64,000 bases of DNA from Streptomyces roseochromogenus subsp. oscitans DS 12.976 (GTDB lineage: Bacteria; Actinomycetota; Actinomycetes; Streptomycetales; Streptomycetaceae). Position numbers and translations under genes: made by a program. The notes beneath the pieces were generated by a model. The model was not told the origin of the DNA, did no database searches, and saw nothing but the letters and a program-made list of their open reading frames with translations. This document shows positions 43,883-60,325 of this stretch, one piece after another. Within the stretch, counting starts at the first letter, position 1; every line of letters begins with the position of its first letter. The stretch lies in NCBI RefSeq assembly GCF_000497445.1, contig NZ_CM002285.1, positions 1,774,200 through 1,838,199 on the forward strand, written 5' to 3'.

Positions 43883-44459
43883 TTGCAGGAGAAGTCTGTC
43901 ATCACACGGGTGGTCGCGGTAGCGGCGCGGGTGTTCACGCCGGGGCACCCGGGAGAGCTGCCCCAGGTCGTGGACTTCGCGCTGGTGGATGCGGTGCTGG
44001 CCAAGACCAAAGCGGTGCAACGCCGGATACGGCTGCTGCCCGCGCGGGTCGTGGTGTACTTCGTCCTCGCGCTGGCGCTGTTCGAGGATTGCGGCTACCG
44101 GGCCGTGTGGGACAAGCTCACCGCGGGCCTGGCCGGGCTCGCCCCGGTGCGCCCGCAGTCCTCCTCGCTCTCACGAGCCCGCCGCCGGCTGGGATTGAAG
44201 CCGCTGCGGGCCCTGTTCGAGGTACGTTCCTCCGCCCGTCGCCGCCCCACCATCTGGCGGCGGCTGTCCGACGGCTCCTATCTGACCCGCTTGTCCGCCC
44301 CCTTATCGGGCCAGGCGCGGCTACGGAATACTGACCCTCCGCGTGATCGAGGCGTGGATCACCGTCACCCTGGCCGACGGGACCGTCCGCCGGGAGCAGT
44401 GGCGGCTGGTCACCAGCCTCACGGACCCGGCCCGTCACCCCGCCGACCGCCTCATGACA
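43883..44459 (+). pseudogene. Truncated IS4-family transposase
   Basis: An intact N-terminal IS4 transposase domain (FALVDAVLAKTKAVQRRIRL; VVVYFVLALALFEDCGYRAV; SSSLSRARRRLGLKPLRALF) runs to ~44225. After a deletion the frame changes and VIEAWITVTLADGTVRREQW and TSLTDPARHPADRLM follow. The gene is cut at 44461 where the second IS110 element begins, and nothing of it reappears on the far side. Confidence 0.82.
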
Positions 44460-44461
44460 CA

Positions 44462-45335
44462 GCCCCTATGAGCGGGGTCCTGACTGTAGCTGTCTGACCA
44501 GGTGGAAGACTTCCCAGGCCGCGTAGCGTTTGACGCATCGGACGATTTCGCGCCAGGTCTTGCCCTCCTTGATCCGGCGCGCTCGACAGGACCGACCCCG
44601 CACAGCGCAGCGAAGGACGCCTCACTGTCCAGGCGTTCCAGGTTGTCCCCCATCGTGATCAGCAAGGCGACGGCCGTGTCCGGACCGATCCCCACCACGT
44701 CCAGCAGCTGCGGGGCATGACACTTGACGAGGCGGGTCAGACGAGCGCCCACATGGCGGATCTGCTCGGAGAGCTGGCCGATCCGGTGGGCCAGCAGACC
44801 CAGCGTGATCCGAGTGGCCTGCAGCACCGCCTCGTCACCGACCTCCTCGTGACCGCTCACGTCGGTGAACCGCCCGCAGGTGCGGAAGAGTTCGGCATCG
44901 CCCAGTCCCCGATCTGCACTGGCCCGTCGCCCGCTTTCGCCCGGGCGCGGGCCCGCCCGCTCAGCACGGCTCGCGCCGCGTTCTGGGCATCGAGCGGATC
45001 CGATTTACCGCGCCGACGACGATCTGCCCGGTCCATCCGAATCACGTCGAACACCTCTAAGCCCTGGGCCAGCAGATAGCGGGACAGAGACGCCCCGTAG
45101 GAACCAGTCCCCTCCACCCCGGCCCGCATCACGGCTCCCCACTTTCTGGCCGGCTTCAGCAGATCGCGGTATCCCGCCGCGGTGGCCGGGAACTCGCCGG
45201 TGGCAAGCACCGTCCCCATCACTCTGGACATGCCCATCCCCCTTCCGGTCCGGTGGCACGTCGCGTTGCCGGCACCGGGCCACGGCAGGCGGTCAGAATC
45301 GTGTGGACGCACAACAACAATCGGCAGGCCCCTAT
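44462..45335 (-). mobile_element. Degenerate IS110-family element, same ends as the element at 16-17 kb
   Basis: Bounded by GCCCCTAT at 44462-44469 and 45328-45335. It is ~330 bp shorter than the intact relative because of internal deletions. It sits directly against the truncated IS4 transposase, so it either inserted in that gene or recombined with it. Confidence 0.78.
44466..45237 (-). pseudogene. IS110-family transposase with internal deletions
   Basis: Reads GTVLATGEFPATAAGYRDLL, GVEGTGSYGASLSRYLLAQG, KSDPLDAQNAARAVLSGRAR, then after a deletion LTRLVKCHAPQLLDVVGIGP and FAALCGVGPVERAGS, then in another frame CVKRYAAWEVFHLVRQL to a TAG overlapping the end 8-mer. The first ~35 codons of the DEDD domain with its first catalytic Asp and the segment between the two large pieces are missing. 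Clearly homologous to, but not a recent copy of, the transposase at 16080. Confidence 0.85.
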
Positions 45336-45369
45336 CGGGACACGCTCCGCCGGCCCGGCACCGACAAAA

Positions 45370-45640
45370 AGCGTCCTCAGATCCGGTAGCCCATCCCGAT
45401 GAGGGTGGCGACCACGGTGGGCCGAGTTCGAGGCCGTCGGGGTAGAAGAGCCGGTGAGCGTAGCGGACCTCGCAGCCAAGACCGATGGCGAAGGTCTTGC
45501 CGGGCTCACCCCAGATTGCGGCCCGGGCGGTCCACAAGTAGAGCTGTCCGTCCGGCATTTCGGCGCTGCACGTGGATGCGTCCTGGGGCAGCGAACGCCT
45601 CATAAACGTTCCACAGCGGGCAGGTGCCGCCGGAGTGGGA
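45370..45640 (-). pseudogene. Remnant of a RamB/PrpR-like XRE regulator C-terminal domain, copy 2
   Basis: HFSHSGGTCPLWNVYEAFAA with APGRIHVQ in one frame and MPDGQLYLWTARAAIWGEPG, KTFAIGLGCEVRYAHRLFYP in another. Same protein region as copy 1 at 30171, but each copy keeps residues the other has lost, so they decayed independently from related parents. It adjoins the degenerate IS110 element. Confidence 0.65.
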
Positions 45641-46068
45641 GAAGTGGAAGCCGGTTGTCAACGATGACGTGTGCGCATTGAACTGCACGAGCCTGAGCCC
45701 TAGCAGCAGTCTGTGGCTGTCCTCGCCATCGCTGACTAAAAGAAGGTCTTGGGGCTCACCGAGTGACACGCGTGGGGTGGCCTGAAGGAGCCGCCCCACG
45801 CAGTCGCCCACTGTGCCTGCCGCTTCACGTACGCGACTGCGGTCATGCCAGGGGAATGGCTGACTTTTGAATGACCTTCCCGTCAACCATTCACGCGCCG
45901 GATAGTTGATTCCCTTTCAGGCTGTTATCACATGAGGGCACTTCCGGCCCATTGGTGAATTTTTTGGCTGGAAGGTGTCAGTTCATCTCTTGCGATTCTG
46001 GTCCGATGAGGACAGTATCTCGGTGCTCGGCAATTCCCCTTTCGGTTCAACCTCCGAGGAGTTGCTTC
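45641..46068. other. Upstream region of the ricin-fold gene
   Basis: A minus-strand frame up to 45886 (DLLLVSDGEDSHRLLLGL) has a coding-like make-up but no family. 45900-46060 is AT-richer than its surroundings and probably carries the promoter of the next gene. Confidence 0.35.
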
Positions 46069-46590
46069 ATGAAGTTCCTGAACGTTCCGCTCGCGGTCGC
46101 GGGTGCCGGTGTTCTGGGCCTTTTGGCTCTCGGTGCCCCTGCCGCACATGCTCAAGAAATCCTCCCGGGTGCGCGGGCGGATAGCGGGTACAGTGTCCTG
46201 TCGAACGACTCAAGTCCTCAGCAGGTTCTCGACGCCTACGGTTTCGGCACGGCGAGTGGGACTCCGGTGGTCACCTGGGCTGCCAACGGTGGAGTCAACC
46301 AGAGGTGGTCTTTGCTTGATCAACCGGATGAGACCGTGGCCATCGTGGGTGCGCAGAGCGGAATGTGTGTTGCTCCTTCCGGCTCGCACGGGGTTGTCAC
46401 GCTGCAGGGGTGCAGCAGTGCGCAGTTCGGTCAGCGCTGGTACAAGGAACGGCGTCCCGGGGGCCGCATCATCTTCGAGAACGCTTTGTTCGAGGGGCAG
46501 TGCCTGGACATGGCGGGAAGCTACAGCCAGGCCGTGGTCAGGGACTGCAATGGAAGCGTGAGCCAGAATTGGCGGCTCTTTGCTTCGTAG
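46069..46590 (+). CDS. Exported ricin-type lectin-domain protein
   Basis: 173 residues: signal peptide ending GAPAAHAQ, then a single beta-trefoil RICIN domain with repeated Q-x-W motifs (VNQRWSL, FGQRWY, VSQNWRLF) and paired cysteines (MCVAPSG...LQGCSS; QCLDM...VRDCN). Such domains bind sugars; here there is no attached enzyme, so it may be a stand-alone lectin. GAGGAG lies 8 nt before ATG 46069. A perfect hairpin 150 bp downstream may end the transcript. Confidence 0.88.
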   Translation: MKFLNVPLAVAGAGVLGLLALGAPAAHAQEILPGARADSGYSVLSNDSSPQQVLDAYGFGTASGTPVVTWAANGGVNQRWSLLDQPDETVAIVGAQSGMCVAPSGSHGVVTLQGCSSAQFGQRWYKERRPGGRIIFENALFEGQCLDMAGSYSQAVVRDCNGSVSQNWRLFAS

Positions 46591-47096
46591 ACGTCACTGC
46601 GGTCCCTGCTGTTTTTATTCCGGGTGACAGTCTCGCGCTCGTGGTTACCGGGCATGTTCCCTGCCCGGTACTCGGACAGCTTTCCGTGTCTGGCCTCCGG
46701 TAAAAGACTGTGAGTTCGGATTTCGGTGGGGCCTCGTCTTCTCTGCTGCGACCGTCCGCAGCAGAGAAGACATGGGCAGTCGGCGGGCATCGCTGTCCGA
46801 CGTGCAGCGCCAGCAGCGCCGGCCTTGGCCTGGGATGGGCAATGACCGACACCGCGGTGGCTGGGAGCCGTATCCAGTGACGCTCAGGGCCGGGGAGGCG
46901 AGGTGTGAGAGCAGGCGTCACGCCGACCACCACGAGCGGGACGCGATCTACGGCAGACAGCAGCCCCCTCGGAACTCCCGCTGCACGGACTGGCCCGCCA
47001 AGTGCGCTGCTCCGCCTCGCCCCTCAGCCCCGGCACGCGGGATTGCCTGCAGCCGACCCAGCCATCGGATCCTGGCCCTGCGGCACTGGTCAGTCG
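46591..47096. other. Convergent intergenic region
   Basis: About 500 bp between convergent genes. It holds the strong hairpin listed separately. A plus-strand stretch near 46900-47060 might be decayed coding sequence; no family recognised. Confidence 0.4.
46738..46769. terminator. Perfect 13-bp hairpin
   Basis: CTTCTCTGCTGCG (46738-46750) pairs without mismatch to CGCAGCAGAGAAG (46757-46769) across a 6-nt loop. It lies between convergent genes and is the strongest hairpin I noticed in the window. Confidence 0.8.
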
Positions 47097-47654
47097 TCAT
47101 TCCGAGGGACAGTTGTCCCACAGCCGGGAAAGCTCTTTGGGGATTCCGACGCAGCCGCCGCTGAACGGGGCGGCGCTGTGGCTGTAAGCCCAGGGCTGCC
47201 CGTTCCGGAGGATGAAGTACTTGCGCGCGCTGCCGTCGTCCTGGATGCCGACCTGCTCCTGGTGCGTCGCGCCCGGGGTGAGTTCGAAGGCGGTCGCGGC
47301 GTACCGCGTGTCCCCGCACTGCCCGTACAGGAACTGGCCCGGGCGCGGCTTGATGTGGCGGAAAAGGGAGTTGTGGCTGGTGTACGCGCGGGTGACCGCC
47401 GTTTTGACCGCCGCGGTCGCGACCAGGTTCCGGCAGCCGGTGCTCTTCTCAGACGCAGCCGTCACTGTCTGACCATCGCCTGCAGCCGCGGTGGCCGCCG
47501 GCTGAGCCCCGCCCGGAGCCGCTGCAGCCGAACCGCCCGCATGAACCGAACCAGAACCAGAGCCAGAACCGGTACTACTGCACGCGCCGAGCAGAAACAC
47601 GGCGGAGAACGTGACAGCGGCCGAAGCCATCGCGCGAGGCATAGTGGAACGCAT
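47097..47654 (-). CDS. Lipoprotein of unknown function
   Basis: 185 residues. Lipobox FLLGAC at Cys~25, then a Ser/Gly and Ala/Pro-rich linker and a ~120-residue domain with CRNLVATAAVKTAVTRAYTS, KPRPGQFLYGQCGDTRYAAT and SGGCVGIPKELSRLW. Four cysteines suggest two disulfides. GGGGGG lies 10 nt before ATG 47654. Anchored to the outer face of the membrane; family not recognised. Confidence 0.82.
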   Translation of the reverse strand: MRSTMPRAMASAAVTFSAVFLLGACSSTGSGSGSGSVHAGGSAAAAPGGAQPAATAAAGDGQTVTAASEKSTGCRNLVATAAVKTAVTRAYTSHNSLFRHIKPRPGQFLYGQCGDTRYAATAFELTPGATHQEQVGIQDDGSARKYFILRNGQPWAYSHSAAPFSGGCVGIPKELSRLWDNCPSE

Positions 47655-47814
47655 CAGAACTGATCCCCCCAGAAAGAGCAGATGATGTGGAGACAGGCAG
47701 GTCATGCCTGTGTCCCGTGCATGCCATCCTTTCGGCCGTTCTCGACAACAATCTCCCCGTCCCGTCACAGCCCTGCAATAACAAACCGTCCATCCTGGAG
47801 CCGACCGCCCCCAG

Positions 47815-47926
47815 CCGCGTGACCGAACGTCTGCTGGAAAGCTCTTTCCTGCTGGCCCAGCTCGCCTGCCTGGGCGCCAACCTCTGCTACGGCATCGGCT
47901 TCGTCCTCAGCCGCCGCCTACGGTTC
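47815..47926 (+). pseudogene. Short fragment resembling an EamA/DMT transporter helix
   Basis: About 35 codons (LAQLACLGANLCYGIGFVLS followed by RR) look like one helix pair of an EamA-type transporter. Nothing else of it is present. Confidence 0.3.
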
Positions 47927-47939
47927 CCTCGGCGTGATC

Positions 47940-48257
47940 GCGTCGGCGGCCGCCTTCTCAGCTGGACGAAGACGCGGCCGCCCTCCTCGTGGACCGCGTC
48001 GGTCAGGCCCCGCCAGCCGGTCACGTGGGCGTCGGTGTGCAGCCCGGGGTGAAGGGGTAGCCCGCCGCCTCGGGGGAGATGGTGGTGGAGCCCGCGATGA
48101 TCAGGCCCGCGGTGGCTCGCTGCCGATAGTCGGTGATCACCAGCGGGGGAACGCACCCGTCGGTGTCGGCGCGGTTGCGGGTCATCGGGGCCATCACCAA
48201 CCGGTTGGCGAGCTTGAGGTCACCCAGGTCGAACGGCGCGAACAGGTCGAGGCGCAT
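47940..48257 (-). pseudogene. Truncated old-yellow-enzyme family oxidoreductase
   Basis: From ATG 48257: MRLDLFAPFDLGDLKLANRL, then VMAPMTRNRAD, YRQRATAGLIIAGSTTISPE in one frame and, after a shift near 48060, HTDAHVTGWRGLTDAVHEEG with GRVFVQL. This is the N-terminal third of an OYE-type FMN barrel (NADH:flavin oxidoreductase). The rest is absent and replaced by the transporter fragment. Confidence 0.8.
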
Positions 48258-48419
48258 ACGGAGCTCCAGCGTTGCGGCGAGCATCGTAGGACAGCCGCCC
48301 TAGAGCGCCGTCACGCCAGGTCGCCCGCGTTGGTGGTGTCAACGGCTTGACGATCTAGGACAGTCGACCTGCGTCGTGGCTCTAGGCCGACTGTCCTACG
48401 ACATCGGAAGGGGATCACC

Positions 48420-48716
48420 ATGACTGCTGTGGCGACCCGTGAACAGATCGTGGCGGCAGCCGACCGGCTCTTCTACCAGCTACTACCACCACTTCAAGTC
48501 GAGATCGTGCTGACCAACCGCGCCGACATCCAGGACTACGGCTGCCCCGTGGGCACCTTGACCACGGAGCTGGCCAAGCTGGAGCACGCCATGCTCGGCA
48601 GGGCCAGCCGCCTGTTCGCCCCGTTCCGCACATGGCTCCGCGAGCAGTTCGCGCCGCTCGGACCGGCCGACCAGGCCGACCAGGCCGACGAGCTGGCCAT
48701 GCACGTTATCCGATAA
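48420..48716 (+). pseudogene. TetR-family regulator with an internal deletion
   Basis: TREQIVAAADRLFYQ is a TetR N-terminus, but the helix-turn-helix that should follow is deleted; the frame jumps to LTNRADIQDYGCPVGTLTTE and ELAKLEHAMLGRAS, the ligand-domain pattern of the same family, and stops soon after. Divergent from the OYE remnant, the usual arrangement for a TetR repressor and its OYE target. It cannot bind DNA. Confidence 0.75.
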
Positions 48717-48966
48717 CAAGGCCGCCGCCGGCCAGCACATGGCCGGCCACCAGGAGTGGATCAAGCGCGGCCTGGACGACGGGGTCTTCCTGCTGGTCGG
48801 CAGCATCCAGCCGGGCCTCGGCGGCGCGGTCCTCGCCCACAACACCTCGCGCGAGGTGCTGCAGAAGCGCGTCGACGACCCGTTCGTCGCCCAGGACGTC
48901 GTCACGGCGGAGATCATCGGGATCGCGCCGGCGATGGCGGACGAGCGGCTGAGCTTCCTCCTGTGA
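48707..48966 (+). pseudogene. N-terminally truncated YciI-like protein
   Basis: HMAGHQEWIKRGLDDGVFLL, GSIQPGLGGAVLAHNTSREV and DPFVAQDVVTAEIIGIAPAM follow the YCII family (small dimeric enzymes or accessory proteins with a His-Asp pair). The first strand of the domain is missing where the TetR remnant ends. ATG 48739 could start a 75-residue product; no ribosome site. Confidence 0.65.
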
Positions 48967-49253
48967 CGGCGCCGTTCCTCGGCCCCGACGGCGCGAAGCC
49001 CACGACGAGCAGCGGGCACGGGAGGTGGCCGGCCGCTACGAAAGCGACGTCATGAACCTCGACATCCGCAGCGACGGCGCTCACCCTGGCCGTCGGGATC
49101 AAGCCGGAGATCCGCGCCGCCTCGGACGTCGGCATGCCGGCCGACTACCCTGCCGCAGCTGCACTCCGGGCTCCCCTTCCGCTGTTCGGTGCGTGCGGCT
49201 GACCGCGCTCAACGGCAGGGGCCCCGGGAATTCGCCGATCCGGGCCCTTGCCG
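48967..49253. other. Intergenic, no gene recognised
   Basis: 287 bp of probable decayed sequence between the YciI remnant and the end of the matB-like gene. Confidence 0.4.
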
Positions 49254-51401
49254 TCAGCCCCGCGCCCCCGTTGCCGGTGACAGCGGGGGTTCCTGGTGGG
49301 AGCCGTAGCGCTCCATGCGCTGCCAGCGCAGGCGGCTGCCGGACAGGGCCGTGGCGACCGACTGGACCACCACGAGGTACATCAGCTGGCGGTAGACGAA
49401 CTGCTGCAACGGCAGGCTCCACAGCGGTCCGAGCCGTTCGCCGTCGAGGCGGAACGCATAGGCCCCGGTGACGACCTGGATGAGCAGGAACGAGCACCAC
49501 AGCAGCAGTACGTGGACGGGGTCGAGGAAGATCAGCCCGTACACGCTCAGCACATCGACCAAGGGTGCGAACAGCGGCAGCAGCACCTGGAACAGCAACA
49601 GGAAGAGCAGCCCGCGACGGCCGAAGGTGCCGGCCGCTCCGCTCTGGCGAACGGCGCCGCGGTGCTTCCACATCGCCTGCAGAGTCCCGTAGCACCAGCG
49701 GTAACGCTGCCGCCACAGGGCGCCGAGGGAAGCGGGAGCCTCGGTCCAGGCGATGGCCCTCTCCTCGTAGACCACGCGCCAGCCGTCACGCCAGAACGCC
49801 ATGGTGAGGTCGGTGTCCTCGGCCAGTGTCGCCTCGGAGACACCGCCGACGCGTACCAGCGCGGCCCGGCGCCAGGCACCGATCGCACCCGGCACCGTCG
49901 GCATGCACCGGGCCAGGTCGAACAGCCGCCGGTCCAGGTTGAAGCCGACGACGTACTCGATGTGCTGCCAACGGCCCAGCAGACCGCTCCGGTTGACGAC
50001 CTTGGCGTTGCCGGAGACCGCTCCGATCCCCGGGTCGGAGAACGGCTGGACCAGCTGGCGCACCGCATCCGGCTCGAAGACCGTGTCGCCGTCCATCATC
50101 ACCACGATCTCGTGCGAGGCGGCGGCGATCCCCGTGTTGAGGGCGGCGGGCTTGCCCGCGTTCCGCTGGCGGATCACCCGTACGCCCGGCAGACCGAGTG
50201 CCTCGACGATGTCGGCAGTGCCGTCGGTGGAACCGTCGTCCACGACGATGATCTCGACGGGGTGGTCGGATGCGACCAGGGACCGGACGGTCGCCTCGAT
50301 GCCGGCCGACTCGTTGTAGGCCGGGACGATCACCGACACCGGTTCGGTGACCGGCGCTCCCCACGCCGTCCTGGCATGCCGCCGGTGCCTGGCAGCGGCG
50401 ATCATGGAGATCACGGCGCGCAGGATGCCCAGCAGTCCGGCGAAGAGCAGCAGCAGGTCGAGTCCGTCGAGGCCCCAGACCGCCCCCTTGAGCAGCCACA
50501 GCAGCCCTACGCCGAGCAGGTGCTGACCGGTGGAGGCCGGGCGGTTGGCGTCGGTGAGGTGGAAAGCCTGGCTGACCGTCTGGAAGCGGTAGCCGCGCGC
50601 CTCCAGGCGCGGAATCAGTGCGTCCAGCGCGGCCACGGTCTGTGCGCGGTCGCCGCCGGCGTCGTGGAAGAGGATCACCTGGCCGGCGGACCCGGGAGGG
50701 GTGGCGTTGCGGATGATCCGCCGCACGCCCGGCTTCTGCCAGTCCTCGCTGTCCTGGGTGACGAGCACGGTCAGGTAGCCCTGCTTGCCGAGCTGTCGCA
50801 TCGTGGCCCAGTCGGCGTTGCCCACCGCGTCGGCGCTGGACGAGTACGGCGGGCGGAAGAGGCTGCTGGTGACACCCGCGGCGCCGGCCACCGCGAGCTG
50901 GTCCTCCCGCATCTCCAGCGTGCGCTGCCAGCCGGGCAGGCTGGGCAGATAGGGGTGGGTGAAGCTGTGCAGGCCGAGTTCGTCGTGATCCTCCGCCATC
51001 CGCGCGACCAGTTCGGGGTGGGTGGCCACGCCGGTGCCCACGAGGAAGAAGGTCGCGGGCACGTGGTGCCGTTCCAGCGTCGCCAGGACCTTGGGGGTCC
51101 AGGTCGGGTCCGGGCCGTCGTCGAAGGTGAGCACCACGGTGCGCGCCGGTGGGGTGAGTGAGACCGGTGTGGATCCGCTGGACGAGATCACCGGGCCGCC
51201 GTTCTCGATCGAAGGCGGCACCTGGTCGACGGGTCCCTGCGGAGGGTTCCCGCCGTCGTCCTGGAAGCCGAACATGTGCTGCGTGTAACCCTCGATGAGC
51301 AGCGTGAGGGTGAGGGTCAACACCATGGTCACCAGCAGCACCCAGTGGGTGCGTACTGGAGTTTCGCGGGCGCTACGGCCACGCCGTGGGGAAGAGCTCA
51401 C
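49254..51401 (-). CDS. matB: Bifunctional polysaccharide deacetylase / GT2 synthase (MatB-like)
   Basis: 715 residues. N-terminal helix (VLLVTMVLTLTLTLLIEGYT), NodB-type deacetylase domain (~85-270: VVLTFDDGPDPTWTPKVLAT with metal/catalytic Asp, LGLHSFTHPYL with metal His, FRPPYSSS, VILFHDAGG), membrane helices ~310-340, then a family-2 glycosyltransferase (VIVPAYNES, VDDGSTDGTADIV, MMDGDTVF, TLAEDTDL, QRYRWCYG = QxxRW) and C-terminal helices. This is the layout of Streptomyces MatB, which with MatA makes an extracellular poly-GlcNAc-like polymer that causes pellet formation. It lies 81 bp downstream of the matA-like gene. Confidence 0.9.
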   Translation of the reverse strand: MSSSPRRGRSARETPVRTHWVLLVTMVLTLTLTLLIEGYTQHMFGFQDDGGNPPQGPVDQVPPSIENGGPVISSSGSTPVSLTPPARTVVLTFDDGPDPTWTPKVLATLERHHVPATFFLVGTGVATHPELVARMAEDHDELGLHSFTHPYLPSLPGWQRTLEMREDQLAVAGAAGVTSSLFRPPYSSSADAVGNADWATMRQLGKQGYLTVLVTQDSEDWQKPGVRRIIRNATPPGSAGQVILFHDAGGDRAQTVAALDALIPRLEARGYRFQTVSQAFHLTDANRPASTGQHLLGVGLLWLLKGAVWGLDGLDLLLLFAGLLGILRAVISMIAAARHRRHARTAWGAPVTEPVSVIVPAYNESAGIEATVRSLVASDHPVEIIVVDDGSTDGTADIVEALGLPGVRVIRQRNAGKPAALNTGIAAASHEIVVMMDGDTVFEPDAVRQLVQPFSDPGIGAVSGNAKVVNRSGLLGRWQHIEYVVGFNLDRRLFDLARCMPTVPGAIGAWRRAALVRVGGVSEATLAEDTDLTMAFWRDGWRVVYEERAIAWTEAPASLGALWRQRYRWCYGTLQAMWKHRGAVRQSGAAGTFGRRGLLFLLLFQVLLPLFAPLVDVLSVYGLIFLDPVHVLLLWCSFLLIQVVTGAYAFRLDGERLGPLWSLPLQQFVYRQLMYLVVVQSVATALSGSRLRWQRMERYGSHQEPPLSPATGARG

Positions 51402-51482
51402 ATCGATGATTTCTGGGATGGGTGAAGAGTTCTGGAACGGAACTGCGGGCGTGGACCAGGGGACGGGAGTCCTGACAGACCG

Positions 51483-52154
51483 TTAGAGCCCGAGCGTGCC
51501 CTGGGTGGGCGAGGCGGAGGGCGCCGCGGTCGGGGTCCGCTTCGGGTGCGGGAACGGCTTGTGCCCCTTGGGCCGCGTCGGACTCGGGGACGGCGTCGCG
51601 GTCGGGGACGGATTCACCGTCGGGGACGGTTTCGCCGTCGGGGACGATTTCACCGTCGAGGGCGACTTCGCCTTGGCGCTCGCGCCGCCGGCGGTCTGCG
51701 TCACGGGCGTCGCCAGGCCCGAGCTCCGGTGCCGCTGGGCGGTGGCCGCCGCGGCCGTCGGGGATGTCCCGGCCCGGGGCGCCTCGTGCGCGTGCTCGGC
51801 GGCGGGGCCCGGCTTGGGCCGCAGGGGGTGCGGCAGCAGCGCCGGCAGGGTCGGGCCGCCCAGGAAGGTGCTGACGAGCAGGGCGACGTAGGCCGCTGCC
51901 GGAGTCACCAGCGCGGCCACCAGGATGCGCAGCCGCCTGCGGCGGCCTCCTGACATGTCGACGAAGATGGGTTTGGGGGTGGGGCGTCGTACCGGCAGGC
52001 CACTCAGGCCCGGTGTGCCGGCGGTGGGCTCGGCCGGGGAACCAGCCACAGCAGGCCCCTGGGTCGGCTCCTGAATGGGGACATCGGGAGACGGTGACGC
52101 GTCACACGTCACGCTGTCCCCGGCGGGCGCCGAGCCCTCCGGAATGGTCTGCAC
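51483..52154 (-). CDS. matA: Single-pass membrane protein with Pro/Thr/Lys-rich tail (MatA-like)
   Basis: 223 residues: a cytoplasmic Pro-rich ~75 residues, one membrane helix after a basic cluster (GRRRRLRILVAALVTPAAAY), then an exported low-complexity tail of SPT-K-PSPT-type repeats that could bind the wall or anionic polymers. Position directly upstream of the matB-like gene supports MatA; sequence conservation in such tails is weak, so identity rests mainly on context. GTG start at 52154 has only a poor ribosome site. Confidence 0.65.
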   Translation of the reverse strand: MQTIPEGSAPAGDSVTCDASPSPDVPIQEPTQGPAVAGSPAEPTAGTPGLSGLPVRRPTPKPIFVDMSGGRRRRLRILVAALVTPAAAYVALLVSTFLGGPTLPALLPHPLRPKPGPAAEHAHEAPRAGTSPTAAAATAQRHRSSGLATPVTQTAGGASAKAKSPSTVKSSPTAKPSPTVNPSPTATPSPSPTRPKGHKPFPHPKRTPTAAPSASPTQGTLGL

Positions 52155-52268
52155 AAGATCCGGACACTAGTGGCTCAAAACTGCTTGCAGGATAGAAAAC
52201 GTTGAAGCTCGCGGAAAAAGTCCGCAAAGCACATGAGCGGGTCGGTGTGGCGGGTACCGTGAAGTACG

Positions 52269-53147
52269 TCAGTCCTGCGGCCTGCTGATGGTCAGTTCGA
52301 AGTCGGCTCCCACGGTCAGCGGAGCCTTCAGATCCCACTCGCCGCGGTCCGCGAGCTCCTGCAGAGCCTGCGACCGGTCGACCGCCTGCGGCCAGTCGTT
52401 CTCGCGGCCGGCAGTGCAGGGTTGCTTCATGTGCTGCCTGCGGACGGTGTTGAACCGGGCCAGCCACGTCGCCTCGTTCACACCGGAGGCCGGGTTGCCC
52501 CCGAGCAACTTGTCGGTCTCGTGGGCGATCTTCAGCATGCCGTCGCAGTCGTCGGAAGTCTGGCCCATCATCAGGGCGGTGTCGTAGAGGTTCTCCAGAC
52601 CCAGCTCGCTCTTCACCCCCTCTCGCGCGCCCAGCTGCATGGCAGGGGCGAGGTACGTGTCGTGTCCCACCTGGATCTGCAGCCTCCGGAAGGCCGGATC
52701 CAGGGCGGCCTTCTTCCAGTCGCGCACGAACGCCTCGCCCAGCGCGCTGGTGTCGTCACTTCCCGAGTCGGCCAGTCGCTGAAGGACGGCGGTGTACTGC
52801 GCGAGCACGTTGTGTGGTGCGATGGCGTTGTACCTCTTGACCAGCCCGAGCATGTCGCCACTCTGGCTGCAGAACCCGATCCACCCCGCCGTGTAGCCAC
52901 AGCCGTCGTGCAGATCGGTGATGTAGGCGTACCGCGGAACGGTGGCACCGTTTTCGAACACCGCGGTGATGTCATCCATCATCAGGATTGCCGCAGGCCC
53001 CGCCGCGGGCGTCGCCGGAGCACCGGCCGTACCGCCGGCCTGACCGGCCCTGTCAGCCTTACCTGCCGTACCGGACGTGCAGCCACCCACGGTGAGCACG
53101 GCGCCGAGGACGACGAACAGGGTGCGACGTATCCCGGTCAACTCCAC
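52269..53147 (-). CDS. GH46 chitosanase-like lipoprotein upstream of matAB
   Basis: 292 residues. The signal ends in a lipobox VGGC (Cys23), then a Gly/Ala/Pro linker, then a glycoside hydrolase family 46 domain. ENGATVPRYAYITDLHDGCG aligns with the chitosanase N174 segment carrying catalytic Glu22 and Asp40: here Glu65 and Asp81 are kept, as is Thr86 in GYTAG, but the Arg42 equivalent is Cys83. WIGFCSQSGDMLGLVKRYNA and FVRDWKKAALDPAFRRLQIQ extend the match. GH46 enzymes cut GlcN-rich polymers. The family is usually freely secreted; here it is membrane anchored. GGAGCG lies before GTG 53147. Same strand as matA and matB, 114 bp upstream, so probably one operon. Confidence 0.87.
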   Translation of the reverse strand: MELTGIRRTLFVVLGAVLTVGGCTSGTAGKADRAGQAGGTAGAPATPAAGPAAILMMDDITAVFENGATVPRYAYITDLHDGCGYTAGWIGFCSQSGDMLGLVKRYNAIAPHNVLAQYTAVLQRLADSGSDDTSALGEAFVRDWKKAALDPAFRRLQIQVGHDTYLAPAMQLGAREGVKSELGLENLYDTALMMGQTSDDCDGMLKIAHETDKLLGGNPASGVNEATWLARFNTVRRQHMKQPCTAGRENDWPQAVDRSQALQELADRGEWDLKAPLTVGADFELTISRPQD

Positions 53148-53535
53148 GAACCGCTCCGGCCTGCTCCTTGCTGACTGCACCGTCTCACTGAAGAGCCTCC
53201 TGCTCGCAGAGAAACCGCGAGCAGGCGGCTTGATCAATTACCGCTCACTTCTCGCCCTGGGTCTTGACCTGGATCTTAGCGTGCTGGGTTTTACTGGTCA
53301 GGGTGTTGGGCGCGTGCGCCGGAGAGGTCGACGTCGGCTGCTGTCGAGCGGCTTCGGACGGACCAGGGACGGCCCGGCCCTGCCCCTGGGGTTCGACGGC
53401 GGGCACTCTCCGTGCGGCTCATTTGAGCCTAAGCCGACGACAGACAGTTGTGACGGTGGCTTGAGTTGGCGGACGAGGTACGTGGCCCCGACGGGGCGGG
53501 CAGGACGGACGGTTCGGTGCGGCGCGGCGCGGTTG
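53148..53535. other. Intergenic, no gene recognised
   Basis: 388 bp between the monooxygenase gene stop and the chitosanase-like gene start. It should contain the promoter for the putative chitosanase-matAB operon; no distinct box or hairpin is evident. Confidence 0.4.
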
Positions 53536-54522
53536 TCACGGTGCTTTCGTGGCCTCGCAGTGCTTCTTGATGAGGTCGTAGGAGCGCACGCGGGCGTCAA
53601 GGTCGTAGACAGGTGTGGTCAGCATGAGTTCGTCTGCTCCGGTATCGGCGGCCAGCTGCGCGAGCCGGCGTACGACGGTCTCGGGCGTCCCGCACGCCTG
53701 TTGTGCACGGAAACCGGCAAGCGCCTGCCGCTCCTGTGCCGTGAAGGGATGGGTGGCGGCGTCCGCGGGTGTGGGGAAGGGAATCTCGCTCAGACCTTTG
53801 AGCAGCCCGGCCTTGACGACGTCCATGGGCCCGGCTCGCCACGCCGCTTCCTGCTCCGTCTCAGCGCATATCGCCTCCACGCACACCAGAACCCGGGGCT
53901 GCTCGCACCAGCGGGACGGGATGAACTCCGCACGGTAGCGCTCCAGCACTGTGAAGGTGTTGTCGGGCCGGATGTGGTGTGCGACGGCGATCGGCAGGCC
54001 GAGTCGCGCGGCGAGGGCGGCACCTGCGGTACTGGAGCACAGCAGCCATGGCTCCGGCAGCGGGCCGAGTGCCACTTCGTCGACCAGAAAGGTCAGGATC
54101 GCAGCGACGTCGTCGTGGTACTGCGCGTCCGTCGCCGGTCCGGCTCCGCGGCGCAATTCCCGCGCGGTGGCCTCGTCGAAGGTGCCGGGGCCGCGGCCGA
54201 TACCCAGGTCGATGCGGTCCGCGTGCAACGCGGCCAGTGTTCCGAACTGCTCCGCCAGCATGATGGGCGCATGGTTGGGCGCCAGTACTCCGCCCGACCC
54301 GAGCCGGATGGCTGAGGTCGAGGCCGCCGCATGAGCGATCAGCACCACGGGTGGGAACGCGCCGATCGCGGGCGAATGGTGGTGCTCGGCGTACCAGATC
54401 CGGTGATACCCCAGTAGTTCGAGCTTGCGAGCGAAGGTGGCGGTGTCACGCAGGGTCTCCACGCCACGGGTCCCTGATTCGACCACCGCGACTTCCAGCG
54501 CTGAAATCGGCACATCGATCAT
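53536..54522 (-). CDS. LLM-class (luciferase-like) flavin monooxygenase
   Basis: 328 residues of the bacterial-luciferase-like TIM-barrel family: VPISALEVAVVESG start, GYHRIWYAEHHHSPAIG with the flavin-side His cluster, RLGSGGVLAPNHAP, RIDLGIGRGPGT. Uses reduced FMN or F420 to oxidise an unknown substrate. ATG at 54522 begins the conserved motif. A 34-codon fragment of the same protein type lies at 30070-30170. It lies 334 bp downstream of the SARP gene on the same strand. Confidence 0.92.
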   Translation of the reverse strand: MIDVPISALEVAVVESGTRGVETLRDTATFARKLELLGYHRIWYAEHHHSPAIGAFPPVVLIAHAAASTSAIRLGSGGVLAPNHAPIMLAEQFGTLAALHADRIDLGIGRGPGTFDEATARELRRGAGPATDAQYHDDVAAILTFLVDEVALGPLPEPWLLCSSTAGAALAARLGLPIAVAHHIRPDNTFTVLERYRAEFIPSRWCEQPRVLVCVEAICAETEQEAAWRAGPMDVVKAGLLKGLSEIPFPTPADAATHPFTAQERQALAGFRAQQACGTPETVVRRLAQLAADTGADELMLTTPVYDLDARVRSYDLIKKHCEATKAP

Positions 54523-54856
54523 GCCGTCAGCATAGGGATCGGTGTGCGCCTCAGGTGCGGCGGTCCCCACCGCCACGGTGCTCGGGCCGGTGGGTGAGGT
54601 CCGTGCGCCAGTCGCCTCCGGTTGCCTCCGGTCCGCGATCGCCAGACCGGTCGACCGCGTCAGTCGCTACGTCCGCCTCGTCCCACTGCCCGACAGGCAC
54701 GGCGCCGAAGCCGTCCGTGGACCACGTGTGCTTGAAATCGGGCGGGGTTGCGCCTCATGCGGCTGACGGCCTGGAGGGTGCGGACAGAGCGGACGCCGTT
54801 CAGGTGGTCGAGCGCCTGGTGCCAGGGCGCGTACGCATGCTCGATGCGGACGCGCT
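54523..54856. other. Intergenic, no gene recognised
   Basis: The minus strand near 54640-54740 reads WSTDGFGAVPVGQWDEADVA, which looks like coding debris of a protein I cannot name. No start or ribosome site. Confidence 0.35.
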
Positions 54857-57790
54857 TCACGGCGACGATGGTCGCGCTGGAGTATTCGTCTGGTTCATTT
54901 CGCCGATCATCTGCCACAGCCGCAGCGCCCGGCTTCGGTGTTGGTGCGCCATGTGGTGGAGGCCGGCGGCGGCGTCCAGGTCGCCGATCAGTTGCCAGCA
55001 TGTGGCCTCGTCCTGGCGGTCGCCGTGCCGGTGGAACAGGCCCGCCGCGCGCTCCAACGCCGGGCTCGCCTGGTCCCGGTCGTCTTGACCGGCGTGCACG
55101 CGGCCGACTTCCAGCAGCGTGTACGCGGCGCACCGCTCGTCGGCCAGTTTCTCGAAGGTGGCCAGCGCCTGCCCCAGGCAGCGCAGCGCCTCGTCCGGAT
55201 CACCGCGCCGATCGTGCAACCGGCTGAACCGCCTCAGCACGACGGCCACGCGGTGCTCGTCGTCAAGCTCTCTGGCCAGGCGCAGGGCTCCGGTGAACCA
55301 GGACTCCGCCTCTTCGAGTTGACCTTGCATGAGTCGCATCACGGCCATGGAGCAGGACAGCTGCGCTTCGATGTGCCGGTCGCCTTCGCCGACCGCGATG
55401 GCCAGCGCTTGCTCCACACGTTCGAGCGCTTCGTCGTCACGGCCCTGCACCCGGCTGACCGTACTGAGCGTCGCCACCGACAACGCCTCGCCGAGCTTGT
55501 CCCCACCGTCCCGGCACAGCTCGATGGAGGACTCCAGGGCGCGGGTGGCTCGGTCGAATTCGTCTTGGTAGATGTGCAGCTGGCCAAGTCCGCGTAGCAG
55601 CACCGACGCCCCGCGCACGTTGCCGGCGGCCTCGGCCGCGCCCAACGCGAGCCGGTGCCCGTGCTGCCAGTCCTGATACAGACACCGGTGGTCGTAGTAG
55701 GTCGCCGTGCCGGCCGCCAGCTCCCAGGCCAACTCGTCCAGGCCCCAGTCCACGGCCAGTTTCACGGCGCCGAGCAGGTTGTCGCGTTCCGCGTCGAACC
55801 AGCCGAACGGATCGGCCATGAGCCGGTCCACGACCGCATCGGGCAGCGATCGGCGCGGTGCCGAACCGGGCGCAGCGGCCAGCAGTCCGCCCGGCAGCCG
55901 GTCGGTGCCGCGCCTGACCAGATCGAGCCAGACGGAGAGCACCCGGACGATCGCGTCCCGCTTGTCCGCCGTCGGCAGCGGGGCGGCGATCTCCATGGCA
56001 CAGGTCCTGATCAGGTCGTGCAGCCGGTAGCGCGGCTGGCCGATGGCGTCGGTGGCGGTCAGCCGCACCAGGCTGGCGTCGACGAGGGTGTCCAGCACTT
56101 CTTCCCCGTCCGAGCGGTCCAGCAGCGGGCCGACCACCCAGCCGGGCAGGGTGTAGGCGCCGAGCAGACCCAGCAGGCTCAGCGCGCGCACCGCGTCGGC
56201 CGGCAGCAGCCGCAGGCTCAGATCGACGCTGGCGCGCACGCTGAGATCCCCGATCCTCAGCTCGGCCAGCCGCCGGGACTCGTCCTCGATCCGTTCCCGC
56301 AGCACCCGCAGCGACCAGGCCGGGCGGCCGGTGAGCTTGGCGCTGGCGATCCGGATCGCCAGCGGCAGGTTGCCGCAGCAGTCGAGGATCGCGTCGGCCT
56401 CCGCCGGTTCCCGCTCGACCCGCCGTCGCCCGATGATGCCCGTGAACAACTCCCGTGCCTCTGCCGGGCTCAGCACGTCCAGGTCGATGTGCCGGGCGCC
56501 GGGAAGTTGCGTCAGCAGAGTGCGGCTGGTGATCAACACGGCACAACCGTCGGCCCCGGGCAACAACGGCAGCACTTGATCGGCGTGACCGGCATCGTCC
56601 AGCACCACCAGCATCTGGCGGTCCGCCAGCAACGAACGGTAGAGCGCGGCCCGTTCGGACAGGCCGTTCGGGATCGCGCTGCCGGCGATCGACAGTGCAC
56701 GCAGCGCTTCGGCCAGCATCAGAGCCGGGTCCCGCGGCTCGTCCGATGTCCCGGCGAGGTTGAGGTAGAGCTGGCCGTCGGGGAAGAGTGCGCTCGCCAG
56801 CCGCGCGGCGTGCGTCACCAGACAGGACTTGCCGACACCTGGACCGCCCACGATGACGGCCACCGGAGCCCGGTTCGGCGCCGACACGTCGAGTAATCGG
56901 GCGACCTCGGCCAGCGCGTCGGCTCGGCCCACGAAGTCGGGGACATCGAACGGCAGTTGGCGCACCGGCATCGCCATTGCCGGCCCCGGGGCCGCCGGGG
57001 CGGGGCTCTCCGGTGGCGTGGCCGAGGGGCCATTTGCTGGGATCGTAGCCGCCAGGGCGGGATCTGCGGTCAGGATGCGCTGATGCAGCGCCTGCAGCGG
57101 CGGGGTGGGGTCGACACCGAGTTCGTCGGCCAGTGTCCGGCGCAGCCGCTCGTACACCTGCAGCGCCTCGCCTTGTCTTCGGCACCGGTAGAGGGCGACC
57201 ATCAGGTGTTCGGCGACCTGCTCGTCGTAGGGGTGCTCGCGGAGCAGAGCGGTCAGTTCATCGATGACCTCTCGATGACGCCCCAGGTCGAGTTCGATGG
57301 CCAGGCACTGTTTGTGCGTGGCCGCGCGTTTCTCGTTCAGCCGTGCCGCATCGATCTCCAGGGCTTGGCTGGGGGTGTCGGCCAGGGCGTTTCCGCGCCA
57401 GCAAGCGAGCGCCCGCCGCAGCGCGACTGCCGTCTCGAACGGGGTCGTGTGCTGTTCGGCGAGGTGTCGCTGGTGGTCGAACTCCAGCAGGTCGAGCTGA
57501 TCTTGAGCCAGGTGGATCTCGTAGCCGCCGCGCCGCGTGCTGATCAGCGTGCCGGGTGCTCCGCGGGCGACGAGGTTACGGCGCAGCCCGGAGACAGCGT
57601 CCTGGACCTGGCGGACCGCGGTGGCGGGCGCGTTCGTGTCCCACATCACGGCGACGAGCCGTTCCATGGCGACGATGTTGTTGGCGTCGATCAGAAGTGC
57701 TGCCAGCATCTTGGCCTGCCGCGGCCCGTTCAACGGGACCGTGCGTCCGGCGATCTGGGCGTGTAACGGCCCCAGTAAGCCGAATCTCAT
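54857..57790 (-). CDS. Large SARP-family transcriptional activator (AfsR-like) with three TTA codons
   Basis: 977 residues. N-terminal OmpR-type winged helix (MRFGLLGPLHAQIAGRTVPL; RQVQDAVSGLRRNL), bacterial transcriptional activation domain (~95-245), NB-ARC ATPase with P-loop VIVGGPGVGKSCLV and VVLDDAGHADQVLPLLPG, then a C-terminal TPR-like helical array. This is the AfsR/SARP architecture; such proteins activate secondary-metabolite or developmental genes by binding direct repeats. Leucines 5, 9 and 299 are TTA codons (57776-57778, 57764-57766, 56894-56896), a strong sign of bldA control. The gene diverges from the exported protein at 58058, with a run of GCCGCAC repeats between. Confidence 0.94.
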   Translation of the reverse strand: MRFGLLGPLHAQIAGRTVPLNGPRQAKMLAALLIDANNIVAMERLVAVMWDTNAPATAVRQVQDAVSGLRRNLVARGAPGTLISTRRGGYEIHLAQDQLDLLEFDHQRHLAEQHTTPFETAVALRRALACWRGNALADTPSQALEIDAARLNEKRAATHKQCLAIELDLGRHREVIDELTALLREHPYDEQVAEHLMVALYRCRRQGEALQVYERLRRTLADELGVDPTPPLQALHQRILTADPALAATIPANGPSATPPESPAPAAPGPAMAMPVRQLPFDVPDFVGRADALAEVARLLDVSAPNRAPVAVIVGGPGVGKSCLVTHAARLASALFPDGQLYLNLAGTSDEPRDPALMLAEALRALSIAGSAIPNGLSERAALYRSLLADRQMLVVLDDAGHADQVLPLLPGADGCAVLITSRTLLTQLPGARHIDLDVLSPAEARELFTGIIGRRRVEREPAEADAILDCCGNLPLAIRIASAKLTGRPAWSLRVLRERIEDESRRLAELRIGDLSVRASVDLSLRLLPADAVRALSLLGLLGAYTLPGWVVGPLLDRSDGEEVLDTLVDASLVRLTATDAIGQPRYRLHDLIRTCAMEIAAPLPTADKRDAIVRVLSVWLDLVRRGTDRLPGGLLAAAPGSAPRRSLPDAVVDRLMADPFGWFDAERDNLLGAVKLAVDWGLDELAWELAAGTATYYDHRCLYQDWQHGHRLALGAAEAAGNVRGASVLLRGLGQLHIYQDEFDRATRALESSIELCRDGGDKLGEALSVATLSTVSRVQGRDDEALERVEQALAIAVGEGDRHIEAQLSCSMAVMRLMQGQLEEAESWFTGALRLARELDDEHRVAVVLRRFSRLHDRRGDPDEALRCLGQALATFEKLADERCAAYTLLEVGRVHAGQDDRDQASPALERAAGLFHRHGDRQDEATCWQLIGDLDAAAGLHHMAHQHRSRALRLWQMIGEMNQTNTPARPSSP

Positions 57791-57951
57791 GCTCCCCCTG
57801 GTACGTGACGATGAGCGCCGTTCCCCCTGGTCGACCTCGCACTAGGACGAATCTAGGACGGCCGACGGATCTGTGTCCATAGCGTCTCCGCAGCACGGCT
57901 CGCCGAGGACGCCTGGGCAGGCGATGGGTGCGGAGGGTGCCTTCGCCCGGT

Positions 57952-58015
57952 GCCGCACACGCACCGCCGCACAGTCCACGCGCACCGCCGCACGGCTCCA
58001 TACGTACCGCCGCAC
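57952..58015 (+). promoter_or_regulatory. GCCGCAC direct repeats, probable SARP operator
   Basis: GCCGCAC occurs at 57952, 57966, 57987 and 58009. The last three sit in a longer identical ACCGCCGCAC starting at 57963, 57984 and 58006, 21 and 22 bp apart, that is two helical turns. SARPs bind heptamer repeats spaced by 11 or 22 bp just upstream of the -10 region. The last repeat ends 42 bp before the ATG at 58058. Confidence 0.6.
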
Positions 58016-58057
58016 CACTTCCGATCGGCAAAACGACAGAAGGAGCACTGATCAACC

Positions 58058-58459
58058 ATGCTTCGCAACTGGAAGGCCTTCGGCGCACTGGCAGTCGCAG
58101 GTTGCTGCGCCACGATCGGCCTCACCACGGGCACCGCTGAGGCGCAGACGCAAATAAAGACCAGCAACGTCACGGAACTCGGTTCGTACAACGACAACGG
58201 AAGAACCGGCAACTACCAGTTCGTGGCGAACAATTGGGACAGCCGCTACCAGCGCTACCAGCAGTCGCTCGTCTGGGTGTCCGGGCAGGACGGCGGCAAG
58301 GACATGGCCCACTGCCTACGGGGCAACGGCGGGGCAAACTGGTACGAATCCTCGATCGTCGCGCGCAACGGTACGAACTCCTCGCACTACGACTGCACCA
58401 ACAACGGCACCTACAACCAGGGGTTCGACCAGGTGGGCGTCGACCTGAGCAACTGGTGA
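58058..58459 (+). CDS. Small exported protein of unknown function
   Basis: 133 residues with signal peptide ending GTAEAQ. The mature ~105 residues are rich in Asn, Gly, Tyr and Ser, with two cysteines (HCLRGNGG, YDCTNNG). AGAAGGAG lies 13 nt before the ATG. It sits directly behind the putative SARP operator, so it is the likely direct target. Family not recognised; the Asn/Gly-rich beta pattern resembles small secreted binding proteins. Confidence 0.82.
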   Translation: MLRNWKAFGALAVAGCCATIGLTTGTAEAQTQIKTSNVTELGSYNDNGRTGNYQFVANNWDSRYQRYQQSLVWVSGQDGGKDMAHCLRGNGGANWYESSIVARNGTNSSHYDCTNNGTYNQGFDQVGVDLSNW

Positions 58460-58545
58460 CAGGTGCCTGAGCAGGCAGCGGACGCCCTGGTGTGCCCCGT
58501 TCGGAGCGCACCAGGGCACACCAGTCGAAGGAGGAGGCCCGGACG

Positions 58546-59388
58546 ATGCTGGGCAGACACAAGACCCTTGCGGTCGCGCTGGCCGTGATCATTGCCGCGA
58601 TGGTCGCGGCGGGGTTCGCGCATTTCCCGTCCGACGACGGCCAGACGGCCCGGGCGACGGCCAACACCCGCCGTTTCGTGCTGGTCCTGGCAGGTGCTTC
58701 CGGCCAGTCGGAGTCGGAAGAATTCGACCTTGAGGTTGCCGCTCGCACGGAGGCCCTGACATCCACATGCATGAAGTCGCACGGCTTCCAGTACCTGCCC
58801 AAGAACCCGCACAGCGTGGTTGATGTCGAGGACGCATCAGACTTTTCGAGCCTCGACTACGCGCGCAAGCACGGGTTCGGAATATCGGTGTTTCCCCACT
58901 TCGCCCCTGAGGCCAAGGCAGCCAAGAGCTACCTGAAGACCCTTTCCGCTGCTTCCCTCAAGGCTTACGATGCGGCTCTTCCCGGATGCGTCGACAGCTC
59001 ACAGCGTACGACTGAAAAGGAATACGGCATCCCGGAGGCGAACTCCGAGTGGGCTCGGGTGGACGGTGAGGTGCAACACGACAGACGTTACCAATCGGCA
59101 CTTGAGACGTGGAGATCCTGTGCGGCGGCGGCCGGTCATCCGGCGCAATCCCGTCTCGCGCTCATCACGAACCTGCGCAAGGAATACACGTCCGTAATGG
59201 CCGGCATTCAGAGTGGGGACCGAGTGCTGCCCCAGGACCAATTGGCGGCGCTGGCCGCTCAGAATCCTTCGTGGCGGAAGTTCCATCAATCGGAACTCTA
59301 TGCCGCCGTGGCGACATTTCCCTGCTCGCAAGCCACCGATCGGACATATGTGTCTATATTCCTCCAGTACCTGAACCGGAACAGTTGA
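58546..59388 (+). CDS. Membrane-anchored exported protein of unknown function
   Basis: 280 residues with one N-terminal hydrophobic segment (TLAVALAVIIAAMVAAGFAH) and a helical, charged remainder. Cysteines at CMKSHGFQYLP, PGCVDSS, WRSCAAAAGH and FPCSQAT could form two disulfides. The CMxxHGF...P pattern and helical periodicity recall a family of Streptomyces exported proteins without known function. GAAGGAGG lies 10 nt before ATG 58546. It follows the small exported protein by 86 bp in the same direction and may share its transcript. Confidence 0.82.
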   Translation: MLGRHKTLAVALAVIIAAMVAAGFAHFPSDDGQTARATANTRRFVLVLAGASGQSESEEFDLEVAARTEALTSTCMKSHGFQYLPKNPHSVVDVEDASDFSSLDYARKHGFGISVFPHFAPEAKAAKSYLKTLSAASLKAYDAALPGCVDSSQRTTEKEYGIPEANSEWARVDGEVQHDRRYQSALETWRSCAAAAGHPAQSRLALITNLRKEYTSVMAGIQSGDRVLPQDQLAALAAQNPSWRKFHQSELYAAVATFPCSQATDRTYVSIFLQYLNRNS

Positions 59389-59460
59389 GGGCGGTGCGCC
59401 AGAGGGAGCCGCCGACGGCACGGCCCGACGGCCCGAGAGGCGGACGGGTCCCACCCGCGT

Positions 59461-59990
59461 GTGCAGGTGTCGGGCGGTGGCAGCCGGGTCGCCTCGCAGG
59501 CCAGCGGGGTCTTGCCGGCGGAGGCAGCTCGCCGTACGGGCCTGGCCGCCGGGTTGTCGGCAGCGCTCGCGCCCTGGCGCAAGCCCAGAGCGGTGCACGA
59601 TCCCGGCAAGGTCCTGCCGGACATCGCACTCGCCGTGGCTCTGGGCGGCGACCGCCTGGCCGGCACCGGCCTTCTGCGGGCCGAGCCCGCGGTCTTCGGA
59701 CCGGTGGCGCCCGACCCGACCGCCGCCCGCCTCCCGCCTCGTCGACACTCCGGCCACAGCCGGTCCGCGCGCGCTCACGGCCATACAACGGGGTGGAGCG
59801 AAGTCCGATACTAAGTCCGGGAGTTGGCTGACCGGGCGGTCGCGGACGCGGGCGGCGAGGTGGTCGTGGACATCGACAAGGTCCTGGTCCTGGCGCACCC
59901 CGAGAAGGAGGACGCGGCCGCGACCTGGCAGAAGACCTTCAACCACCACTCGCTGTTCGCGTTCGTCGACCACAGCCCGGGCGGGGCCGC
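59461..59990 (+). pseudogene. IS1380-family transposase fragment
   Basis: RTGLAAGLSAALAPWRKPRA, DIALAVALGGDRLAGTGLLR and SRLVDTPATAGPRALTAI are the N-terminal part, and GGEVVVDIDKVLVLAHPEKE with TWQKTFNHHSLFAFVDHSPG the first catalytic-Asp region of IS1380 transposases. Two frame changes and a deletion separate the parts; the C-terminal half is absent. Confidence 0.8.
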
Positions 59991-59994
59991 TGCG

Positions 59995-60325
59995 GCCCCC
60001 CGTGGCGGCCCGGCGCACCTTCGCCAACCACGAGGCCAACCCGCTCGACCCGGCCAACCTCGTGGACCTGCAGAAGCGGGTACCGACCGAGGGCGCCGAC
60101 CTCGGCATCGCCTTCGACGAGGACGCCGACCGCTGCTTCGTCGTGGACGAGCACGGTGACCCGGTCTCCCCGTCCGCGGTCACCGCCCTGGTCGCCGCGC
60201 GCGAACTCGCCCGCAACGGCGGCGAGGGCACGATCATCCACAACCTGATCACATCCCGTACGGTCCCGGAGGTCGTGCAGGAGAACGGCGGCACCCCGGT
60301 CCGCACCCTGACTGGCCGTGATGCC
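59995..60325 (+). pseudogene. manB: Fragment of phosphomannomutase/phosphoglucomutase
   Basis: FANHEANPLDPANLVDLQKR, GADLGIAFDEDADRCFVVDE and ELARNGGEGTIIHNLITSRT form the metal-binding (DxDxD: DEDAD) and sugar-phosphate middle part of ManB-type mutases. The active-site serine region and the C-terminal domain are absent. It is joined to the IS1380 fragment without a gap. Confidence 0.82.

Follow-up and report, generated by a model that had tools for sequence, protein, structure and literature searches.

Two described systems come close to the locus analysed here. The matAB genes of Streptomyces lividans and S. coelicolor (PMC4391728, PMC5972031) encode a MatA-like membrane protein followed by MatB, a fusion of a CE4 deacetylase with a GT2 synthase. 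According to PMC5972031, the S. lividans MatAB proteins make beta-1,6 PNAG, as judged by antibody and dispersin B, with no calcofluor (beta-1,4) signal, and the acyltransferase gene SCO2961 is a neighbour of matB. In PNAG operons of Gram-negative bacteria, PgaB combines a deacetylase with a GH153 endo-hydrolase, which is described as cutting only deacetylated PNAG (PMC5933820). GH46 enzymes, in turn, are known as beta-1,4 chitosanases (PMC4663542), and the roles of their catalytic acids, of a water-orienting Thr and of an Asp at subsite -2 are treated in PMC3848431 and PMC5635096.

The window, a stretch of 64,000 nucleotides from Streptomyces roseochromogenus subsp. oscitans DS 12.976, carries on its (-) strand a GH46 gene (52269-53147, 292 aa), a matA-like gene (51483-52154, 223 aa) and matB (49254-51401, 715 aa), in this order of transcription. 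For the GH46 gene we chose the GTG start common to all eight cassettes described below; the mechanical open reading frame extends to a TTG at 53237. A sequence-only reading had recognised, upstream of matA and matB on the same strand, a GH46 gene with both catalytic acids, the Thr and a lipobox, and had assigned both a synthase and a deacetylase to MatB; all of this was borne out, with the GH46 gene immediately before matA. As in the operons with PgaB, a synthase-deacetylase is accompanied by its own putative endo-hydrolase, but here the hydrolase belongs to another family, is a separate putative lipoprotein and is found in a monoderm. In keeping with the same reading, the listings and abstracts of PubMed Central (subscription literature being outside this scope) yielded no account of a GH46-matA-matB cassette or of a chitosanase as part of matAB.

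Pfam model PF01374 (Glyco_hydro_46) matches residues 60-277 of the GH46 protein at E 8.5e-69, with 231.8 bits against a curated cut-off of 27. The GH46 fold is present, and in fold and sequence the protein is nearest to chitosan hydrolases. Alignment to the structures 1chk and 7c6c puts both catalytic acids in place. Glu65 (codon 52953-52955; all codons on the (-) strand) corresponds to Glu19 of 7c6c, the residue mutated in the E19A entry 7c6d, while Asp81 (52905-52907), Thr86 (52890-52892) and Asp98 (52854-52856) correspond to Asp40, Thr45 and what we take to be Asp57 of CsnN174 (1chk), so that the catalytic Glu and Asp, the water-orienting Thr and the subsite -2 Asp are all present. The site of CsnN174 Arg42 is occupied by Cys83 (52899-52901). 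This exchange had been noticed from the sequence alone and is confirmed, but the residue lies two positions after Asp81 (D-G-C-G) rather than beside it. Compared with CsnN174, 7c6c/7c6d and 6lwu, the window protein also has Met194 in place of the subsite -3 His (CsnN174 His150, OU01 His153), two extra conserved cysteines (Cys201 and Cys244) and a lipobox. The latter, VGGC with Cys23 (53079-53081), is a motif match that makes the protein a putative lipoprotein. We rejected the reading of this gene as a pseudogene: no stop interrupts it in any of the eight cassettes, and its dN/dS is about 0.45.

The exchange at the Arg42 site is no minor matter. According to PMC3848431, all 19 replacements of Arg42 in CsnN174 lower activity considerably, R42E and R42K retaining 1.7 and 2.6%, and the preference of these two mutants for highly over sparsely deacetylated chitosan falls from 9-fold to 2-fold. 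On chitosan with fewer deacetylated units the two mutants thus lose comparatively less activity, which favours the reading that we consider best and hold with moderate confidence, namely that the anchored, altered GH46 protein cuts the partly deacetylated MatB polymer. MatB would polymerise N-acetylglucosamine with the assistance of MatA, and its outer CE4 domain would deacetylate part of the chain. The GH46 protein, exported and fixed by a lipid on the outer face of the membrane, would cut the emerging, partly deacetylated chain there, and this would set chain length or free chains that jam the exit. Loss of Arg42 and of the subsite -3 His may have retuned the donor side of the cleft, away from chitosan with a high degree of deacetylation and towards the product of a GT2-CE4 protein, in which few units are deacetylated. 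Given the residual activities of R42E and R42K, the cassette enzyme may be weak.

A protein search at E 1e-10 gave 63 relatives, which were aligned with the window protein in 64 rows. Asp81, Cys83, Cys93 and Asp98 are each present in every row, Glu65 in 61 and Thr86 in 57, with Lys in the remaining seven. Cys201 and Cys244 occur in 62 rows, and 62 rows carry all four cysteines; the second pair is missing from P0062 and P0063 in the alignment, and from L128, the sequence of which was read by eye. This co-occurrence suggests disulfide pairs Cys83-Cys93 and Cys201-Cys244. Ordinary GH46 genes in the loci read across the genus have Arg at the Arg42 site in 27 of 27 cases, including L002, the second GH46 gene of the window's own genome, whereas the subfamily matches that show the motif have Cys in 9 of 9 (L095 and L101 among them being one gene). 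Cys83 is, beyond chance, the mark of a rare subfamily and not a single substitution. An order-wide search (293 genomes, E 1e-60) found matches in 4 genomes, and a class-wide search with P0025 as query (394 genomes, E 1e-45) found a match in its own genome only. P0062 and P0063, one of them from Streptomyces fungicidicus, carry Cys83 yet cluster in the tree with ordinary cluster-A-like chitosanases, so that the change from Arg42 to Cys seems to have occurred at least two times. Elsewhere in the tree, a branch with long N-termini, including a protein of Kutzneria sp. CA-103260, forms a seven-row group on one long branch (P0047, P0049, P0051, P0055, P0058, P0060 and P0061). The seven rows with Lys for Thr are taken to be these same rows; the Lys was seen directly in P0055.

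These patterns bear on the idea that the GH46 protein has lost most of its catalysis and works as a polymer-binding tether, anchored by its lipid, that keeps what MatB makes at the cell surface; we regard this as rather unlikely. Arg42 is needed for full activity of CsnN174, and the thermal shifts of R42E and R42K on binding chitosan are reported to be 3-4 times larger than those of the wild type (PMC3848431). The subsite -3 His is replaced by Met here and in 53 of 64 relatives, and the GH46 protein changes faster than MatB. However, both catalytic acids and the Thr that orients the water are retained in the mat branch, although a protein that only binds would have no use for them, and the related branch with Lys for Thr (7 of 64 rows) shows that the Thr site can be lost.

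The mat branch comprises the window protein and P0001-P0013, a single clade of 14 rows with support 100/100; gene neighbours were read for eight of its genomes. A lipobox, called by a regular expression over the first 45 residues, is found in 14 of 14 rows of this branch, in none of the 12 rows nearest to it (P0014-P0025) and in 9 of the 50 rows outside the branch. The lipobox therefore goes with the link to matAB. Away from matB we found six distinct C-type genes, that is, members of the Cys83 subfamily: L095 (with an identical region in L122), L096, L097, L098, L099 (partial) and L130. These secreted proteins share 48-70% identity with the window GH46 but, unlike it, are without a lipobox and without MatB in the stretches read. 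In three of the six a PL14 polysaccharide lyase gene adjoins the GH46 gene (L095:10805-11665, L096:10878-11750 and L130:8387-9049); one neighbour gene each was scanned in L097-L099. This suggests that secreted C-type members attack polymers accompanied by uronic-acid chains.

The matA-like gene is open in all eight cassettes, encodes 204-224 aa and starts 111-114 bp past the GH46 stop. Its product consists of a core PKPIFVD-SGGRRRRLR and one hydrophobic stretch, matches no Pfam or NCBIfam family, and shows weak similarity to the protein encoded ahead of MatB elsewhere (E 5e-18 to 2e-24 in other mat loci; composition correction was off, and the protein is of low complexity and rich in Pro, Ser and Thr). 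MatB matches PF01522 and PF13641. It keeps the CE4 motifs TFDDGP (92), HSFTHP (145), DSEDW (217) and LFHD (244) and the GT2 motifs DGDT (437), EDTDL (528) and QRYRW (565), which we take to be the catalytic motifs of the two domains. The best NCBIfam GT2 model for the window MatB is PgaC_IcaA, at 185.6 bits and under its cut-off of 422.3. The same model ranks first in all eight MatB proteins tried (the window's and seven others, 173-195 bits, all below 422.3), with NodC at 62-80, and it is best both in the cassette branch and in the branch taken below to hold the S. lividans and S. coelicolor MatB. The sequence accordingly gives no sign of a change of linkage in the cassette class.

In a MatB tree of 54 rows, which omits mat loci L085, L086 and L088 and in which bootstrap had not settled, the cassette proteins form a clade of eight (100/99), sister to 26 rows of a class with 66-69% identity; three rows with disagreeing identity labels were classed by tree position. 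The remaining 20 rows form a separate group. We presume that the characterised MatB belongs here, since the member L083 (the same gene as L060) precedes an acyltransferase gene, as reported for SCO2961; the canonical branch was recognised by such neighbour genes, with the SCO2962 sequence outside the comparison. The cassette MatB would then lie outside the characterised branch. The cassette also differs from the S. lividans and S. coelicolor matAB genes in the GH46 gene in front and in its variable chromosomal place, and six open reading frames scanned beside its matB (44.4-49.0 kb) include no icaC-like acyltransferase. In the 66-69% class, a transglycosylase-transpeptidase (PBP) gene follows matB in both loci scanned (L074:2149-4497 and L080:5618-7873), and N-termini resembling that of the PBP also follow matB in L077 and L079. 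Genome G146 has two MatB genes of different classes (L120 / L078, contig C1), and the window's genome has one full-length MatB.

The PBP gene beside the sister MatB class is one of several observations that would fit a different substrate, either peptidoglycan with deacetylated GlcNAc or another beta-1,4 wall glycan, so that the cassette would remodel the wall instead of making an outer polymer. A beta-1,4 linkage suits GH46; the CE4 domain of the characterised MatB is reported to resemble PgdA and NodB, both of them enzymes for 1,4-linked substrates (PMC5972031); and DslA, a lipoprotein of the lysozyme superfamily, is described as acting on deacetylated peptidoglycan (PMC7511926). We nevertheless consider this substrate unlikely. 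In the Pfam scan the GH46 protein showed no domain that binds peptidoglycan, its fold and sequence are nearest to chitosan hydrolases, the nearest GT2 model is a PNAG synthase, and the PBP observation comes from just two sister loci.

The association of GH46 with matAB was followed in 392 genomes of the genus. The GH46 gene was found at E 1e-50 in six of them, and MatB at E 1e-290 in 29, at 30 places, of which five show 93-100% identity (the cassette class) and 25 show 66-69%. The cassette-class MatB is confined to five of the 392 genomes, and by coordinates the GH46 gene adjoins it in all five places. In G286, the sixth genome with a GH46 match, the protein is a secreted relative, and a MatB of the other class is encoded on a different contig. 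Two peptide patterns run against named genomes picked up 11 loci, of which five are without MatB and six carry the three-gene unit: Streptomyces sp. IMTB 2501, MspMP-M5, CT34, S. albospinus, S. noursei and sp. CB02959. Counting the window and G311, there are eight distinct blocks, and in all eight the 4.1-kb block GH46-matA-matB is intact. In contrast, a GH46 gene is absent from all 17 other mat loci read over 14-20 kb each and from all 44 read over about 3-5 kb (a set that overlaps the 17). We therefore reject GH46 as a general part of matAB, and conservation of the block at six unrelated places rejects a chance neighbour. The proposal that the three genes form a unit is supported to this extent: they belong together as one cassette, and the co-occurrence expected from the sequence-only reading is tighter, but much narrower, than it had claimed.

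Conservation of the block also weighs against an ordinary chitosanase, serving in feeding or in protection from chitosan, that stands beside matAB by chance. GH46 genes are common in the genus, with matches at E 1e-5 in 147 of 199 genomes, which is what would make such a coincidence conceivable. However, the window's genome carries, apart from this gene, an ordinary GH46 gene with Arg at the Arg42 site (L002), the mat-linked gene keeps its neighbours at the six unrelated places, lipobox and Cys83 set it apart, and cassette-class matB without GH46 was not found among the 392 genus genomes (five of five have it). We hold this explanation to be very improbable.

Comparison by blastn of window positions 44001-60000 with the seven other cassettes (85-94% identity) shows where the block is bounded. 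Shared DNA ends at 49195-49251 on the left and at 53168-53374 on the right, so that the outermost limits are 49195-53374 on the (-) strand; it begins 21-227 bp ahead of GH46 and runs 3-59 bp beyond the stop codon of matB. When the flanks were compared over 9 kb, genes in common (at least 50% identity) were found only among S. albospinus, S. noursei and CB02959, and the other five blocks share no flanks with those three or with each other, which gives the six unrelated places. Between the window and G191, G175 and G311, dS (NG86) is 0.124-0.169 for matB and 0.155-0.212 for GH46, against 0.439-0.501 for xthA and 0.575-0.614 for a Clp gene, these two genes, both from this window, being the core comparison. 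The three genes thus appear to travel together. In the two core genes, G144 and G286 diverge less from the window (0.375-0.418), yet they are without the block. In the close relative G146, core dS is 0.043 and 0.108, while its block, at another place, has 0.128 and 0.150. Lateral transfer of the whole block is the simplest reading; for the pair of window and G146, duplication with loss is possible.

At the site of the window's cassette, G146 (L143) is without a 37.3-kb segment (16222-53493) that has the cassette at its right edge: window positions 9211-16221 there adjoin 53494-54730. The difference may be either an insertion in the window's genome or a deletion in G146. A decayed 3' end of a cassette-class matB on contig C64 of G146 (L144:9281-9744) carries flanking DNA that is found downstream of the window's matB, and the intact G146 cassette is on another contig; G146 may therefore once have had a copy related to that of the window. 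An IS110-family transposase gene (16080-17204) spans the left end of the segment, and IS110 remnants also lie at 44.4-44.9 kb. The window has no tRNA as an integration site. A plasmid-borne cassette was rejected, since none of the 29 matching plasmid records covers over 80% of the query.

A possible GH46 promoter (53273-53301, (-) strand), read by eye, consists of CTGACC (53296-53301), a spacer of 17 nt and TAAGAT (53273-53278). A similar pair can be recognised in the upstream alignment in the window, L089, L090, L091, L092 and L121, and partly in L093. Likewise read by eye, TAGTGT (52164-52169, (-) strand) is a possible -10 box of matA that stands 9 nt before the GTG start, a position it occupies in all eight cassettes in the intergenic alignment; a leaderless matA transcript is possible. 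A scanner for promoters and terminators reported none over 51300-53500. On these grounds, separate promoters for GH46 and matA would be as likely as one operon.

Returning to the cutting of the MatB polymer by the GH46 protein, support comes from the joint occurrence of the three genes at six unrelated places, the lipobox of the mat branch, the kept catalytic residues, the absence of stops in eight of eight cassettes and the dN/dS of 0.45, and PgaB is a precedent for a hydrolase that needs the deacetylase of the same protein. Against it stand the dN/dS of matB (0.215), about half that of GH46, the many mat loci without GH46 and the possible separate promoters. The chief objection is linkage. 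The sequence-only reading had expected GlcN stretches in the MatB product that GH46 enzymes cut, but this does not follow where the characterised polymer is beta-1,6 PNAG without a beta-1,4 signal, and the cassette GT2 domain scores best with the model of a beta-1,6 synthase, as do all seven others. We know of no GH46 enzyme that cuts beta-1,6 PNAG. To resolve the conflict, either the GH46 subfamily has switched to another linkage or substrate, or the polymer of the cassette is a different one, or the protein acts on another glycan or only binds. We put forward tentatively, as a possibility well short of probable, that C-type GH46, having given up Arg42, cuts partly deacetylated beta-1,6 PNAG or that this MatB class makes a bacterial beta-1,4 chitosan-like coat with its own chitosanase; either way, the cassette would be a mobile synthase-deacetylase-hydrolase unit for an amino-sugar polymer of the cell surface.

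Pellet formation by MatAB limits industrial Streptomyces fermentation, and in the literature of PubMed Central we met no description of how the MatAB polymer is cut or released. A built-in anchored hydrolase, if true, would be a handle on this polymer. Since mutagenesis calls Arg42 essential, a GH46 subfamily in which another residue is fixed at this site makes it possible to test directly how such enzymes select an acetylation pattern or a linkage, and the cassette also bears on the question whether the coats of some Streptomyces are linked beta-1,4 or beta-1,6.
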